From: an uncultured Alphaproteobacteria bacterium
GTDB lineage: Bacteria > Pseudomonadota > Alphaproteobacteria > Rs-D84
DNA: 64,000 bases
NCBI GenBank assembly: GCA_949878575.1
Contig: CATLAX010000001.1
Location: 446,220-510,219, forward strand
Direction of reading: 5' to 3'
Made by a program: the position numbers and the translations under genes. Shown here one piece after another: positions 49,380-58,792 of the stretch (position 1 is its first letter; the number at the start of each line of letters is the position of its first letter). Below the pieces are notes generated by a model, which made no database searches, was not told the DNA's origin, and was given only the letters and a program-made list of their open reading frames with translations.

Positions 49380-50105
49380 ATGCGTTTTAGTTTGAATCAG
49401 TTTGAAGATTTTTTAAAATCCATAGACCTGCAAAAGTACAGGAATGAATATGCGGCCACAAAAATTGTAGAGCTGGATTTGCCCAAAAACATACAGGCGT
49501 TAAAAACCATGTATGAACAATACTGGGACAACAAGGACAACAACGGGACGCCATTGTCATTTGAAGAATATTACGACACGGTGTATTTTCCAACGCATAA
49601 AGAAGAAATTTATAAATTTTGGCACACAAAATCCGGCTTTGGCACGGAATGCGACTGTTTCCTGCGTGGTCTGAAGGCAAGAATTTACAGGACCTGGGCG
49701 TCTTTAATAACTCAGATTCATGGTGGTTATGTGGCCGAAAAAGTATTTGGGGCCGGCACTGTGGAGATGGGCGAAGAATTGGATAGGAACAATATTGATT
49801 TTAAAATAACAACAGCAGATAAAACAATTTTGGTACAGGTAAAAAAGAAAACAAACCGCAAAGAAATCGCCCGCATGGACGACGGTGCCGACAAAAATAA
49901 CAACATTCAATATATCAGGTACGAGGTTCCGACACCCAAAGACTATGAGAATCCCTATTACAAAGAAAACAAAAATCACAAGGCAAACGAGTTAAAGCCT
50001 TTCGCAAAAAATTTTGTAAAGTTCAACCCTTTTGGGGGAACGCTGGACAGGTTTGACAACGGATTTGTCGTTTTTACAGACAATGCGTTTAAAGGCCTGA
50101 TTTAA
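49380..50105 (+). CDS. Putative type II restriction endonuclease
   Basis: Convergent with a DNA methyltransferase; PD-(D/E)xK-like NIDFKITTADKTILVQVKKKT. Confidence 0.6.
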   Translation: MRFSLNQFEDFLKSIDLQKYRNEYAATKIVELDLPKNIQALKTMYEQYWDNKDNNGTPLSFEEYYDTVYFPTHKEEIYKFWHTKSGFGTECDCFLRGLKARIYRTWASLITQIHGGYVAEKVFGAGTVEMGEELDRNNIDFKITTADKTILVQVKKKTNRKEIARMDDGADKNNNIQYIRYEVPTPKDYENPYYKENKNHKANELKPFAKNFVKFNPFGGTLDRFDNGFVVFTDNAFKGLI

Positions 50106-50970
50106 GCCGTTGATGATAGGTTTCAATATTTTTTTTCGCCAGCAAAACGTAATCAGGATTAATCTCGTATGCCGTGAAAGTACCACCGTTTTGTAGAACA
50201 GAAATGCATTCACTGCCGCTGCCGCAAAACGGTATCAGCACACTAAACCCGGATTTTGGGCGGCATGATTTTATCAGTCTGTCTGTCACAGCCAACGGCT
50301 TCTGTGTGGGATGTATGATTAGATCAGACTGGTCATATCGCGTCCTGTCCCGTGGATTTATTATTTTGTCCTGTGACCTGCTGTAAATAATCCTTTCCCT
50401 TAACGCCGCGCCGCCCGCCAATGTGGATTCACAAATCACATCCCGTGGCAATGCGCCATTGGGATTGGCCTCATAAACAGTTTGTTTTTTTCCGCCGAAA
50501 CGGGCTGTTTTTGATGTCGGACGGGTTTTCCCGGCACTGCCTTTAAGAAATCCGTCAGTATACGGAACCCGAACATCGTCGCGGTTAAATATCGGACTGT
50601 CCCGCCAATAACAAATTATGGATTCATGACTGCGTTGCCAAAAATTCAACGACGGAACATTTTTGTTTGTATAATACCATGTCAGCCAGCGCTGGTTGCG
50701 CATGGGCAAAAGCACGGAAATATGAGCCAATATTTCATCAAAACCATAAATAAACATTGTGCCCGTGGGCTTCAGAACCCTTTGGCATTCCAACAGCCAT
50801 AATTTCACCCATTCTATATAGTCCGTATGATTTTGCCTGTCGGAATCATTTCCGAAATCTTTGCCAATGTTATATGGAGGATCGGCAATAATTATGTCAT
50901 ATGTATCGTTGGGAATGTTTTTTATTCCCTGCAAACAGTCTTCATTAAAAATACTATTTTTATAATTCAT
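50089..50970 (-). CDS. DNA methyltransferase (N4-C or N6-A type)
   Basis: DIIIADPPYNIGKDF; HPTQKPLAVTDRLIKSC; IPFCGSGSECISVL. Confidence 0.9.
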   Translation of the reverse strand: MNYKNSIFNEDCLQGIKNIPNDTYDIIIADPPYNIGKDFGNDSDRQNHTDYIEWVKLWLLECQRVLKPTGTMFIYGFDEILAHISVLLPMRNQRWLTWYYTNKNVPSLNFWQRSHESIICYWRDSPIFNRDDVRVPYTDGFLKGSAGKTRPTSKTARFGGKKQTVYEANPNGALPRDVICESTLAGGAALRERIIYSRSQDKIINPRDRTRYDQSDLIIHPTQKPLAVTDRLIKSCRPKSGFSVLIPFCGSGSECISVLQNGGTFTAYEINPDYVLLAKKNIETYHQRLKSGL

Positions 50971-51121
50971 CTGTTTTGGCCCCGGTGCGCCCCGACAACA
51001 TAAAAGATTAATCGCTTTCCTATCCTGGGCTAAGATTAGCACAGCTTTGGATTTCATTTCAACATTTTTAACAAACAAAAAGACCGACAAAGTCGGTCTT
51101 TTTGTTTGTGTAATGGATTTA

Positions 51122-51745
51122 TTAGTCCTTGTTTGTGTATTCACAAAAGCCTTCACTGGTGTCGCAACGAGAAATTACACCTTCGCTGATGAAATAACCC
51201 TGCGGATGCAGACACGCCGGGCAAACCTGCGGAGCCTCTGTTCCAATGTGCCAGTTGCCGCAGTTTGTGCAGCGCCACATCACAATTTTATCCGATTTGA
51301 ACAGTGTGCCGTTTTCCATAGCCTCGGCCAGGGCGCGGAAGCGGGATTCGTGATAACGTTCCGCATAGCCGATATTTTTCAGCACTTCTGCAATTGCCGG
51401 GAATCCTTCCTGGGCCGCAATCTGGGCAAATTTCGGATACATGTCGGTGTTTTCTTCGTGTTCGCCATATGCCGCCGCCTTTAAATTTTCCAGCGTGTCA
51501 CCGATTTTACCGGCCGGGAAAGATGCGGTAATTTCCAGATCGCCACCTTCCAGGAACTTAAACAAACGTGACGCATGTTCTTTTTCCTGGTCGGCTGTTT
51601 CCAGAAAAATCTTTGAAATAGCTTGAAAACCTTCATTCTTGGCCTTTGACGCAAAGAAGGTGTAGCGGTTGCGCGCCTGGGATTCACCGGCAAACGCGGT
51701 CAGCAAATTCTTTTCTGTTTGTGTACCTTTCAGGGATACTGTCAT
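51122..51745 (-). CDS. Rubrerythrin
   Basis: TEKNLLTAFAGESQARNRYTFFASKAK...EKEHA; C-terminal rubredoxin-like CTNCGN...CPACLH. Confidence 0.95.
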   Translation of the reverse strand: MTVSLKGTQTEKNLLTAFAGESQARNRYTFFASKAKNEGFQAISKIFLETADQEKEHASRLFKFLEGGDLEITASFPAGKIGDTLENLKAAAYGEHEENTDMYPKFAQIAAQEGFPAIAEVLKNIGYAERYHESRFRALAEAMENGTLFKSDKIVMWRCTNCGNWHIGTEAPQVCPACLHPQGYFISEGVISRCDTSEGFCEYTNKD

Positions 51746-54036: not shown

Positions 54037-54065
54037 CTTGAAAATTTGCAAATAAAGATTTATAT
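54037..54065 (+). promoter_or_regulatory. Candidate RpoH-type promoter of the Lon-like gene
   Basis: CTTG-N18-TTTATAT, same spacing as the dnaK element at 8157. Confidence 0.45.
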
Positions 54066-54076
54066 TATGAAACACT

Positions 54077-55834
54077 ATGAAAGAATACGTACTTCCCTTT
54101 AGAGATTTTGTCGTACACCCCGGATTAACGGTGCCTATTTACATTGACAATTCATTGTCCGTCGCATGTATAGAGGCCGCAATGGCCGACAGTCGCAGAA
54201 TTGTTCTGACGGCCCAGCACAGCTGGAATTATCCAAACAGTGTTGACGACATATACGATGTCGGCACAATCGGCGACATCGCCCAGGTTCTGCGCATGCC
54301 GGACGGCGCAATTCATGCAATCGTACGCACAACCGGCGTCGTGTCCTTGCACGACATATCGGTTGGCCGCGGCCTGTTTACCGCAAATGTTGCGGGGATT
54401 GAATGCGCGGACGACGATGAAACGGAACAGACAACCGCACTGCGCGACAGGATTGCGGGAAATCTGCAGGCCATGGCGTCCAGCCGCAAGCTAAAGATTG
54501 AAAAGCTGCGCAATATAATTCAAAACTATCCATTGCCTGCATTTGTTGACGCCGTTGTCCAAATGGCCGATATTGACACGGATACGGCGATTGCCGTATT
54601 ACGCGCCACATCATGGCAGAAAAAACTGGAAATACTGTTGGAACAGGTAAACCTGTTGGCGGAAACAGCAAAAATAGAAGATTCAATTAACCGCAGAATA
54701 CATCAGCAGATGGAATCTGGCCGGCGCGAGGCGATATTGCAGGAAAAAATGCGTGCCATTCAAAAAGAGATGGGCGAAGACGCCGATGAAATGGATGCAA
54801 TTAACATGCGCCGCCGCATAGAAAGCGCCCCGCTGACGCCGGAGGTGCGCGAAAAAGCAATGTCGGAATGGCGACGCATGCGTTCCATGGCGCCAATGTC
54901 AAACGACGCGGCGCTGTTAAAGGCCTATTTGGATGAACTGCTGGCGATGCCGTGGGCAAAAACACCGCCGGCAAAAATAGATTTGGGCGCCGCGCGTAAA
55001 ACCTTGGACGCCCAGCATTCTGGAATGACGCCTATAAAGGAACGCATACTGGAACATATCGCCGTAATGAAAAAAACCGGCAGCAACCGCGGCGGAATAC
55101 TTTGCTTTGTCGGCGCACCGGGCGTGGGAAAGACATCACTGTGCAAATCAATAGCAGAGGCACTGGGGCGCAAATACCACCGCATATCACTGGGCGGCAT
55201 TTCGGACGAGGCGCATTTTCGCGGCCACCGCAAAACATACATCGGCGCCCAGCCGGGCCGCATCATGGATGCACTGAAACGATGCCATACAAACAATCCG
55301 GTAATCGTGTTGGATGAAATAGACAAAATGGGGCGCGATTGGCGCGGCGATCCGGAGGCGGCATTGCTGGAAATAATGGATCCGGAACAGAACCACGCAT
55401 TTCGCGACCATTATCTGGAGGTGGATTTTGACCTGTCAAACGTTGTGTTTATAGCAACGGCGAACAGCCTGAACCTGTCCGGGGCATTAAAAGACAGAAT
55501 GGAAATCATAGAAATCCCCGGATACAGCGAAGAGAACAAGGTAAACATTGCGCGCGAGCATCTGATTGCGCGCGCCGCCAAAGACACCGGATGGAACCCG
55601 GCCAACATTGAAATATCCGACGAGGCGCTGCGTCACATAATACGAAATTATACGTCAGAGCAAGGCGTGCGCCAGTTGCAACGTGAATTAACGGCGATAC
55701 TGCGGCGCGCACTGTTGGAACACGACGGCGAAGATGTTGCAACAGAATTTACGGTGCAAAAAATAGACGATTTGCTGTCCGTGCGCAAATCCGCCGGATT
55801 TTCAAAGCGCATCGGATTTGGCGCCAGTATATAG
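54077..55834 (+). CDS. Lon-like AAA+ protein lacking the peptidase domain
   Basis: Lon N domain; Walker A GAPGVGKTS; Walker B VIVLDEIDKMG; ISLGGISDEAHFRGHRKTYIGAQPGRIM; ends ...KSAGFSKRIGFGASI* before any Ser/Lys protease domain. Confidence 0.9.
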   Translation: MKEYVLPFRDFVVHPGLTVPIYIDNSLSVACIEAAMADSRRIVLTAQHSWNYPNSVDDIYDVGTIGDIAQVLRMPDGAIHAIVRTTGVVSLHDISVGRGLFTANVAGIECADDDETEQTTALRDRIAGNLQAMASSRKLKIEKLRNIIQNYPLPAFVDAVVQMADIDTDTAIAVLRATSWQKKLEILLEQVNLLAETAKIEDSINRRIHQQMESGRREAILQEKMRAIQKEMGEDADEMDAINMRRRIESAPLTPEVREKAMSEWRRMRSMAPMSNDAALLKAYLDELLAMPWAKTPPAKIDLGAARKTLDAQHSGMTPIKERILEHIAVMKKTGSNRGGILCFVGAPGVGKTSLCKSIAEALGRKYHRISLGGISDEAHFRGHRKTYIGAQPGRIMDALKRCHTNNPVIVLDEIDKMGRDWRGDPEAALLEIMDPEQNHAFRDHYLEVDFDLSNVVFIATANSLNLSGALKDRMEIIEIPGYSEENKVNIAREHLIARAAKDTGWNPANIEISDEALRHIIRNYTSEQGVRQLQRELTAILRRALLEHDGEDVATEFTVQKIDDLLSVRKSAGFSKRIGFGASI

Positions 55835-55849
55835 TATGCAATTACAATA

Positions 55850-56416
55850 ATGGATGACAAAGGCATGATTTTAATCATTAACACATCTGGGGCCGGAATT
55901 GAATTTGTTTTGGACAACAATTACCGCCATGTGACAGCCGAAAAGCAATCCGTCGCACTGCCCACGGAATGTGAAAAATTTATGCAGGACTGCGGTGCAA
56001 AATGGAACGAGTTAAGCGCCATCGGAATTGTTGTCGGCCCCGGCAGCTTTACCGGCGTGCGCCTGGGTATCGCATACGCAAAGGGTTTGGGTCTGGGGCT
56101 GAACATTCCGGGGGTCGGAATAAATGCGTTTGAATTGTATTTGGCGGCCGCGCCTGATGCGTTTGTTGCAATAGATTCCGGCCGGGGCGACTTCTTTGTG
56201 GCGTCACCACGCACGGCGCCGCAAACCATGGGCATAGACGAACTGGAAACACGCCAGATGGAATGTCCGCGCACGGTCGGACACAAGCCGTTTGATCTGC
56301 GCCTGGGGACAAAAATAGTTATGGAAAAACTGGCGGCCGGCGACACGCCCCCCGCCGTTCCGATGTATTTGCGCCCCAGTTATGTTGAAACAAACAAGCA
56401 ATGCTGCAACAACTAG
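55850..56416 (+). CDS. tsaB: tRNA threonylcarbamoyladenosine biosynthesis protein TsaB
   Basis: MILIINTSG...IGIVVGPGSFTGVRLGIAYAKGLGLGL. Confidence 0.9.
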   Translation: MDDKGMILIINTSGAGIEFVLDNNYRHVTAEKQSVALPTECEKFMQDCGAKWNELSAIGIVVGPGSFTGVRLGIAYAKGLGLGLNIPGVGINAFELYLAAAPDAFVAIDSGRGDFFVASPRTAPQTMGIDELETRQMECPRTVGHKPFDLRLGTKIVMEKLAAGDTPPAVPMYLRPSYVETNKQCCNN

Positions 56417-56787
56417 AAAATCTTCACCGCGAATGTTTTCCGCACAAACCGTGGTGTGCGACGGATTTTGCCGACTTGAAAAAATCGGGGTGCGACATAA
56501 TCGCCAGCCAAAACGGATTTATCGTATACCGCGTCGTCGCGGATGAGGCGGAAATAATAACACTGGGTGTTGCGCCGAACGCGCGGCGCGGCGGCATTGC
56601 CGCGGCAATGCTGGAAATAGCCGCGGAGGATGCAAAAAAACGCGGCGCAAAAAAAATGTTTTTGGAGGTCGCGGAAGACAACGCCCCCGCCCGTGCATTA
56701 TACGAACAGTCGGGATTTGCAAACATCGGCGTGCGACCGAAATATTATGACGGCATTGATGCGGTCATGATGTCACGAAATCTGTAA
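56401..56787 (+). CDS. rimI: RimI-like N-acetyltransferase
   Basis: ITLGVAPNARRGGIAAAML...LEVAEDNAPARALYEQSGF; overlaps the tsaB end. Confidence 0.88.
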   Translation: MLQQLENLHRECFPHKPWCATDFADLKKSGCDIIASQNGFIVYRVVADEAEIITLGVAPNARRGGIAAAMLEIAAEDAKKRGAKKMFLEVAEDNAPARALYEQSGFANIGVRPKYYDGIDAVMMSRNL

Positions 56788-56808: not shown

Positions 56809-57507
56809 ATGACGGCGCAGGATTCTTATTTTCATTCGGGACACCGCGAAAGACTGCGCCAAAAATTTTTGGATGACAAAATCACGGACTATGAATTCTT
56901 GGAACTGTTGCTGTCCTTTGTAATTCCGCGGCGCGACGTGCGCCCGCTGGCACGGCGCCTGATACAGCAATACAGCGGCCTGCACCAGATATGCAGTCTG
57001 CCGCTGGAAACATTAATGGCCGAAGACGGCATTGGGCGCAATACCGCAATTTTTCTAAAAGCACTGCGATATGCAATGTTGACCGAATACCGCGAGCATT
57101 TGGACAAGAACCCCATTTTTCATGACGACACCGTCCTTGTCAACTATTGCCTGACGCTGCTGGGCGGGAAAACGGTGGAAGAATTTCATGTTCTGTATCT
57201 GGACAGGGAAAAGCGCCTGTTGGTGGACGACTGTCACAGCATAGGGACCATAGATCAATCCGCGGTATATCCGCGTGAAATTCTGCGGCGCGCACTGAAC
57301 GTAAATGCGGCCAATGTTGTATTGCTGCACAATCATCCGGCCAGCGACAAGCCTTTCTCGTCCCAGGACATAGAAATAACGACACAAACCCGCGACATGC
57401 TGGATGCTGTTGGAATATATCTATATGATCACTATTTGGTGGCCGGCGGCCAGGTTGTGTCCGCACGGGCAAAAATGTTTTTGAATCAAAGCAAAAATTT
57501 TAGTTAG
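56809..57507 (+). CDS. radC: RadC family (JAB/MPN) protein
   Basis: VVLLHNHPASDKPFSSQDIEIT. Confidence 0.93.
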   Translation: MTAQDSYFHSGHRERLRQKFLDDKITDYEFLELLLSFVIPRRDVRPLARRLIQQYSGLHQICSLPLETLMAEDGIGRNTAIFLKALRYAMLTEYREHLDKNPIFHDDTVLVNYCLTLLGGKTVEEFHVLYLDREKRLLVDDCHSIGTIDQSAVYPREILRRALNVNAANVVLLHNHPASDKPFSSQDIEITTQTRDMLDAVGIYLYDHYLVAGGQVVSARAKMFLNQSKNFS

Positions 57508-58792
57508 CACCGCCAATAAAATCCAAAACACGACTGTCAAAGATAACGTCCCGCGGGCGCAATGGCGACGCAACATGCATATCCGCCGAACGCCGCGTCC
57601 GGGACAGCGCCACATACGCCTGGCCGTGGGCGAACGCACCGCGTGACATGTCAACCACCACCGCGTCCAGGGTTTTGCCCTGAGCCTTGTGTATTGTCAT
57701 GGCGTACCCCAGGCTTAACGGAAACTGGCGATACGCCCCGACCTCGTTTTCCGTCAGCCGGTCGTTTTCATCGCGCGCGTATTCTATCTTTTCCCATTTT
57801 TCCGGCCGCACTGATACGGTTTCATGGTTATCCGACAACAGCTGCACCACAATTTCCCGCGCCCCCAGCGCCCGAACAATCCCCATGGATCCATTGTGCC
57901 ATTTGTCGCCGTTTTTAACAAACACCACCAACGCGCCGACCTTTAACACCAACGACAACGGCGCCGGCACGTCGCGTTCCGCAAAATTGCCGGTTAATTC
58001 ACCGTTATATGCAACCTCTGGCGCGTTTATCTGGGCCAGACGCGCCGCATTTATTCGTTCGGCCACGGCACGAAAAGGCGTAATAATAACTGCATTTTCA
58101 CGGCGTGCGGCGTCTTCTATGCGGCATGAGTTAAAGAATTCCAACGCCCCTGCGTCGCCGGCCCTTAGTCTGCTTAAACTGTCCAACAGTTCTTTGTCGT
58201 TTTGCCGGTAAACCAAATTAAAATCGTATTTTATAAAATCGGCGCGCTTAAACACGTTGCTGTCAAAGAAATAAGCGTTTTCATATCCGTAATTTTGCGC
58301 ATACAGCGCGGCCGCGTCACGCGTTATAACAGGCGGCAACTGAAACAAATCGCCGATAGCCAACACCTGCAGTCCGCCAAACGGCGCATTGTTACGCCGG
58401 GCCTGGCGCGCCAAAATGTCCATCGCATCCAGCAAATCCGGGGCGACCATTGATATTTCATCAATAATCAGAACATCCGCCCCGGTCAACACATTTCGTG
58501 TTTTTGCCTTTAACTTAAGCAATTCCGGAACAATAAAGTCGCGCGGTTGAATCTGAAACAGCGAATGAATGGTTTGGCCCGCAATATTTAGCGCCGAAAC
58601 CGCGGTCGGGCATGCGCATATTATACGCTTTTTGGACGCGGCGCGCAGATAGTTTACAAATGTAGACTTGCCCGTTCCGGCCTGTCCCATAATTAACAGA
58701 TTAGAGTTTGTGTTTTCCAGTGCCTGCATCGCGGCCATCTGGGTATCGCTTAAAATAGGGATTACATCGGACATATGCCCATATGTTGTCAT
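57500..58792 (-). CDS. PIF1-like / RecD2-like helicase
   Basis: LLIMGQAGTGKSTFVNYL; VLIIDEISMVAPDLLDAMD; LGYAMTIHKAQGKTLDAVVVD; AYVALSRTR. Confidence 0.9.
   Translation of the reverse strand: MTTYGHMSDVIPILSDTQMAAMQALENTNSNLLIMGQAGTGKSTFVNYLRAASKKRIICACPTAVSALNIAGQTIHSLFQIQPRDFIVPELLKLKAKTRNVLTGADVLIIDEISMVAPDLLDAMDILARQARRNNAPFGGLQVLAIGDLFQLPPVITRDAAALYAQNYGYENAYFFDSNVFKRADFIKYDFNLVYRQNDKELLDSLSRLRAGDAGALEFFNSCRIEDAARRENAVIITPFRAVAERINAARLAQINAPEVAYNGELTGNFAERDVPAPLSLVLKVGALVVFVKNGDKWHNGSMGIVRALGAREIVVQLLSDNHETVSVRPEKWEKIEYARDENDRLTENEVGAYRQFPLSLGYAMTIHKAQGKTLDAVVVDMSRGAFAHGQAYVALSRTRRSADMHVASPLRPRDVIFDSRVLDFIGGAN

Follow-up and report, generated by a model that had tools for sequence, protein, structure and literature searches.

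Within a stretch of 64,000 nucleotides from an uncultured alphaproteobacterium of the order Rs-D84 (GenBank assembly GCA_949878575.1, contig CATLAX010000001.1, positions 446,220 to 510,219; hereafter the window) we found a lon gene encoding a protein of 585 amino acids, which keeps the motor of the Lon protease and ends in a short peptide resembling the ClpP-docking loop of ClpX. Textbooks present Lon as the protease in which ATPase and peptidase share a single chain, and the ClpX-ClpP pair as the two-part design. Our preferred reading, to which we assign a probability of roughly 80%, is that this Lon motor, having shed its protease, has acquired a ClpP-docking peptide at the C-terminus and now forms one half of a two-part Lon-ClpP protease.

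The preliminary description of this gene, made from the letters of the window, had reported a Lon N-terminal domain and a complete AAA+ module with no peptidase domain, and profile searches agreed: PF02190, PF00004 and PF22667 all matched above their cut-offs, while Lon_C (PF05362), the peptidase domain which carries the Ser-Lys dyad, gave no match in the 585-residue protein. The match to TIGR00763 covered profile positions 2–565 of 795 (543.7 bits, under the cut-off of 608), and alignment to E. coli Lon, which had been proposed as a check, showed homology over residues 5–547 (439.7 bits). The top structure matches of the predicted fold were also Lon structures, the model being of moderate quality (mean predicted local distance difference test score, pLDDT, 70.5) because it was built on a shallow alignment of 20 rows, consisting of the window and related-locus sequences. 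Walker A, Walker B, sensor 1, the arginine finger and sensor 2 are all intact and hardly vary across 117 homologues (Table 1), from which we infer that the protein acts as an ATPase and unfoldase. There was no match in it to TIGR00382 (ClpX family), and the ClpX of this genome is encoded by a separate gene beside clpP. The TAG stop of lon lies at 55832–55834 and the ATG of tsaB at 55850, 15 nt further on, and there is therefore no room for a peptidase remnant between them, as had been claimed of the stop at residue 585; among homologues the lon-tsaB spacing is typically 10–20 nt. Together these observations support a real, non-decayed Lon-derived unfoldase.

Judging by domain order, the tail of this protein would leave the lid at the point where a canonical Lon continues into its peptidase domain. 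It reads ...SKRIGFGASI-COOH, and residues 571–585 are predicted to be disordered (pLDDT < 50), as would suit a docking peptide on a tether. Most of the contacts which ClpX of E. coli makes with ClpP come from its IGF loop (Ile268-Gly269-Phe270); Ile268, Phe270 and Val274 fill pockets of ClpP, and the variants I268L, F270L and V274A bind poorly (PMC7112951). The IGF loops of ClpX are flexible and dock into the H-site clefts of the ClpP ring (PMC9035409). The ClpX of the genome carrying the window reads IGFGADV at this loop and those of its relatives IGFGATV and similar. ClpP is put forward here as the specific partner because the tail IGFGASI shares the spacing of Ile, Phe and following hydrophobic residue with the ClpX peptide. 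The preliminary description had allowed for a peptidase encoded elsewhere, and this option stands, but the partner to which the ClpX-type IGF peptide in the tail RIGFGASI points had been overlooked.

The IGF is conserved in a tail that varies elsewhere. [K/R]-I-G-F followed by only 3–9 residues to the end was found in 117 of 118 distinct truncated homologues, a few of them perhaps partial copies of a single gene, and the family form of the tail is [K/R]-I-G-F-G-x-x-(A/I/L/V)-COOH. At position i + 6 from the Ile, which corresponds to Val274 of ClpX, 109 of 117 sequences have a hydrophobic residue, compared with a background of 39%, so that an invariant IGF and a hydrophobic i + 6 residue, as in the docking peptides of ClpP-partner unfoldases, are both present. 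From residue frequencies, the chance that the final 16 residues of a protein include an IGF is estimated at ~0.15%. Every synonymous codon for Ile, Gly and Phe is used at the IGF while the amino acids are unchanged: in 69 close pairs we counted 79 synonymous and 0 nonsynonymous substitutions (dN = 0). Entropy in the columns beside the IGF ranges from about 1 to 2.5 bits. In close pairs, the ratio of nonsynonymous to synonymous substitution rates (dN/dS) was 0.105 in the linker, 0.146 in the last four residues and 0.026 in the AAA+ core, and purifying selection on the truncated Lon is strong. The 118th homologue (L223, genome G115) has an in-frame TAA ~50 codons before the end, beyond which the usual IGF tail is readable; the stop could be a null allele of recent origin or an artefact of sequencing.

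Table 1 Features of the truncated lon gene and its surroundings (window positions).
Feature	Residues	Position	Strand	Basis or remark
Promoter-like site, conserved, CTTGAAA...TATATT		54037..54066	+	sigma70-like TTGAAA-N17-TATATT; fits relaxed RpoH too
Truncated lon, 585 aa		54077..55834	+	N-domain, coiled coil, AAA+, lid and tail; no peptidase domain
LON substrate-binding N-domain (LON_substr_bdg)	5-191	54089..54649	+	PF02190, 85.7 bits
AAA+ core	342-478	55100..55510	+	PF00004 and near-invariance
AAA+ core sites	Walker A 346-353; Walker B around D413/E414; sensor 1 N463; Arg finger R474
Lon lid (Lon_lid)	502-548; sensor 2 R532	55580..55720	+	PF22667
Variable linker from lid to docking peptide	566-578	55772..55810	+	column entropies
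C-terminal putative ClpP-docking peptide	I579-G580-F581-G-A-S-I585-COOH	55811..55831	+
tsaB		55850..56416	+	conserved downstream neighbour; marks synteny with full-length lon of sister genus g27
GNAT acetyltransferase gene (RimI-like)		56401..56787	+	third gene of conserved lon-tsaB-GNAT block

The genome carrying the window (945 kb in two contigs) encodes a cognate ClpP (G000:C1:267515-268048) which adjoins clpX and is closely similar to ClpPs of solved structure, and ClpP was detected in 57 of 59 genomes of the same genus. A second, weakly matching ClpP-like protein of about 220–300 aa (PF00574, E from about 1e-20 to 1e-4) is present in many genomes of the genus (G009, G011, G015, G016, G021, G024 and others) and absent from the genome with the window. 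No protein scored above the ClpA cut-off in any tested genome; the candidate ClpA match in the window's own genome was rejected, as it is a ClpB-like protein, a two-ring Clp ATPase. This ClpB-like protein (G000:C2:185645-187684; L119, L165) is short, at 685–688 aa, and is matched by ClpB profiles only from about position 150, its ClpB N-domain seemingly missing. ClpB-like proteins are 686–736 aa in many relatives, and genus g30 has frames of 860 aa.

We compared lon genes across the order Rs-D84, which has reduced genomes and includes the genus Candidatus Enterousia (PMC12306168). The closest named relatives of the genome with the window are metagenome-assembled genomes; animal guts are the source of many, and several bear the label Candidatus Enterousia. 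We place the genome in Candidatus Enterousia or a very close relative of it, within a family of gut bacteria with small genomes. A lon gene was detected in 190 of 202 genomes of the order (E ≤ 1e-20). The truncated form, or fragments ending alike, occurred in all listed members of the window's own genus and in the readable genera g18, g19, g21-g26 and g28-g30 of its family, so that the truncation, for which relatives were to be checked, is common to every readable genus of the family except g27. Full-length lon frames of about 770–880 aa were found in g27 and in the other families of the order, the exception being a 700-aa frame (G042, L141) which ends within the peptidase domain and is perhaps cut by a contig end. 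In a sample of the class Alphaproteobacteria, 129 of 135 genomes had a Lon match, and frames outside the family were 778–948 aa long, with two exceptions, one of 638 aa and one of 627 aa that is a partial second match.

In a tree computed without the tail columns, the truncated Lons form a single clade (Shimodaira–Hasegawa-like approximate likelihood ratio test support 99) which is sister to the full-length Lons of g27. The g27 genes also precede tsaB and then the GNAT gene, and the simplest history is one in-place loss of the Lon peptidase domain in the family ancestor. A full-length lon before tsaB in relatives had been named in advance as an observation which would speak against the truncation; such genes do exist, but within the family only in g27, and they date the loss of the domain rather than refute it.

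A few assemblies stood apart in this survey. G048, G173 and G196, rated 92–93% complete, had no Lon match at E ≤ 1e-20, which may reflect complete loss or gaps. Two unlike truncated lon genes (L217, L218) are present in G059, each on its own contig, and G125 has two equal-scoring copies at a distance of 19 kb; the bins may be mixed, or the duplication may be real or a product of assembly.

In the mechanism we propose, the family ancestor would have lost the Lon peptidase domain once and in place, keeping the N-domain, AAA+ module and lid, and the remaining unfoldase would then have acquired a flexible C-terminal docking peptide. From the conserved motifs, the N-domains would capture Lon-type substrates and the AAA+ ring with its pore loops would unfold and thread them; from the peptide, the six IGF tails of a Lon hexamer would enter the hydrophobic clefts of the ClpP ring in the manner of the ClpX loops. 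The truncated Lon would thus bind ClpP at sites identical to those used by ClpX, and substrates threaded into ClpP would be cut there, the pair acting as a degradation machine.

The protein combines features of several known systems. Its N-domain, AAA+ module and lid are homologous to those of the LonA proteases (endopeptidase La; E. coli Lon 6u5z, Meiothermus Lon 7ypk), but where LonA has a peptidase domain with a Ser-Lys dyad, the truncated Lon has the IGF peptide. With ClpX of ClpXP it shares this peptide, with equal Ile/Phe/i + 6 hydrophobic spacing, and, if the proposed pairing is correct, the arrangement of an AAA+ unfoldase with a separate peptidase; ClpX belongs to another AAA+ family, in which the large AAA domain bears the peptide as an internal loop, and has a zinc-binding N-domain which the truncated Lon lacks. 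The HbYX tails of proteasomal ATPases and the C-terminus of HslU, which enters HslV, dock as C-terminal tails into pockets between peptidase subunits. Docking by a C-terminal peptide would be alike in the truncated Lon, whereas the peptide here is of the IGF type, with ClpP as its predicted partner. ClpB is likewise an AAA+ machine without a peptidase, but it is a double-ring disaggregase with no IGF peptide, and the genome with the window has a separate ClpB-like protein. We consider it likely, although slightly less so than the pairing itself, that a non-Clp AAA+ motor convergently evolved a C-terminal ClpP-docking peptide after losing its peptidase, perhaps out of what had been the first residues of that domain.

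Several points weigh against the proposed pairing. The case for IGF-ClpP docking is built from sequence comparison; the motif is a free C-terminus in the truncated Lon and an internal loop in ClpX; and the Ile is always preceded by a basic residue, unlike in ClpX. In full-length relatives the peptidase domain opens with a short VG[V/I]xxG strand near the position of the IGF, and the motif could thus be partly inherited. The tail of the divergent genus g22 reads DIGRKIGF or DVGRKIGF, the corresponding g27 sequence being DFGRTDKEDAVGI, and the docking peptide could have arisen from this strand by a small deletion and a change to Phe; a fresh origin of the tail is equally possible. It should also be noted that no ClpP was found in the genus genomes G010 and G069, and that in G028 (98% complete) no clpX was found and the only ClpP-like match was weak. 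The genes which flank clpPX in a relative are split over different contigs in G028, beside long repetitive genes, its region around clpB (L232 at the end of contig C1, L212 on C5) is rearranged relative to G011, and contig C1 ends within a long repetitive cysteine-rich gene. As the flanks expected in these genomes have been rearranged or are interrupted by contig ends, the missing ClpPs are likely to be assembly gaps.

Other explanations of the truncated protein must be weighed against a Lon-ClpP machine. It may be a stand-alone Lon-derived unfoldase or chaperone which remodels without proteolysis, its tail serving folding or oligomer stability. The intact, strongly selected AAA+ module and lid, with no peptidase in the same chain, would suit such a protein, but an invariant ClpX-like tripeptide at the end of a variable, predicted-disordered tail would be left unexplained, and we regard this as unlikely. 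Of the suggestions made earlier, the Lon-derived unfoldase is retained and the free-standing chaperone is disfavoured. A tail which binds ClpP without feeding it, by competing with ClpX, opening the ClpP gate or regulating ClpP, would account for a docking peptide the same as that of ClpX, and small molecules bound in the ClpP clefts suffice to open ClpP by themselves (PMC9035409). However, the pore-loop region, Walker motifs and N-domain have all been kept, which would be needless for a mere regulator and makes this less probable again.

The IGF peptide could also dock the motor to a different peptidase, and our searches across the genomes did not cover other peptidases, HslV included. This appears improbable, as the motif is of the ClpP type, HslU was not found in the window's own genome (its AAA_2 matches were only the ClpB-like protein, ClpX, Lon and a RarA-like protein), and a Lon peptidase domain encoded separately was not found. 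A free Lon protease domain, for which a genome-wide search had been suggested, was not found: PF05362 had no match in the genome itself, in the 59 genomes searched from the genus (control genomes match in 13 of 14 cases) or in 18 further genomes of truncated genera, and was found in 12 of 12 tested genomes with full-length Lon. Most assemblies of the group are metagenome drafts, in which an assembly error, frameshift or pseudogene might be suspected. We rejected such an artefact as having next to no probability, since the identical end point recurs in > 100 independent assemblies from many species and genera, under purifying selection with low dN/dS and with the short gap to tsaB maintained; the earlier judgement that a simple frameshift is unlikely was therefore sound.

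If the pairing of truncated Lon with ClpP is real, AAA+ families would be able to swap peptidase partners by means of a peptide about seven residues long. ClpP would then degrade the Lon substrate repertoire, and a single ClpP could form a mixed particle by carrying ClpX on one of its faces and Lon on the opposite one. The peptide would represent a minimal docking tag, and Lon substrate recognition would be separable from Lon peptidase action. With its full-length Lon, the sister genus g27 would offer a before-and-after pair for tracing the switch. Our literature searches, made largely without subscription papers, returned no description of a protease-less Lon paired with ClpP and nothing on Lon in Rs-D84; this silence is weak evidence that the pairing is novel.

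A candidate heat-shock promoter, CTTG-N18-TTTATAT, had been described upstream of lon, and it is one and the same site as the sigma70-like TTGAAA-N17-TATATT. The site is conserved, with a sigma70-like match in 104 of 112 homologues, a relaxed RpoH-like match in 106 of 112 and a strict RpoH-like match in 35. The two sigma factors are indistinguishable here, and the heat-shock assignment is only partly supported.

Elsewhere in the window, a TaqI-type restriction endonuclease (PF09573) lies beside a convergent DNA methyltransferase-like open reading frame at 49380–51156, probably a restriction-modification pair in this 945-kb genome, and a PIF1-like helicase of 430 aa is encoded on the reverse strand at 57500–58792.
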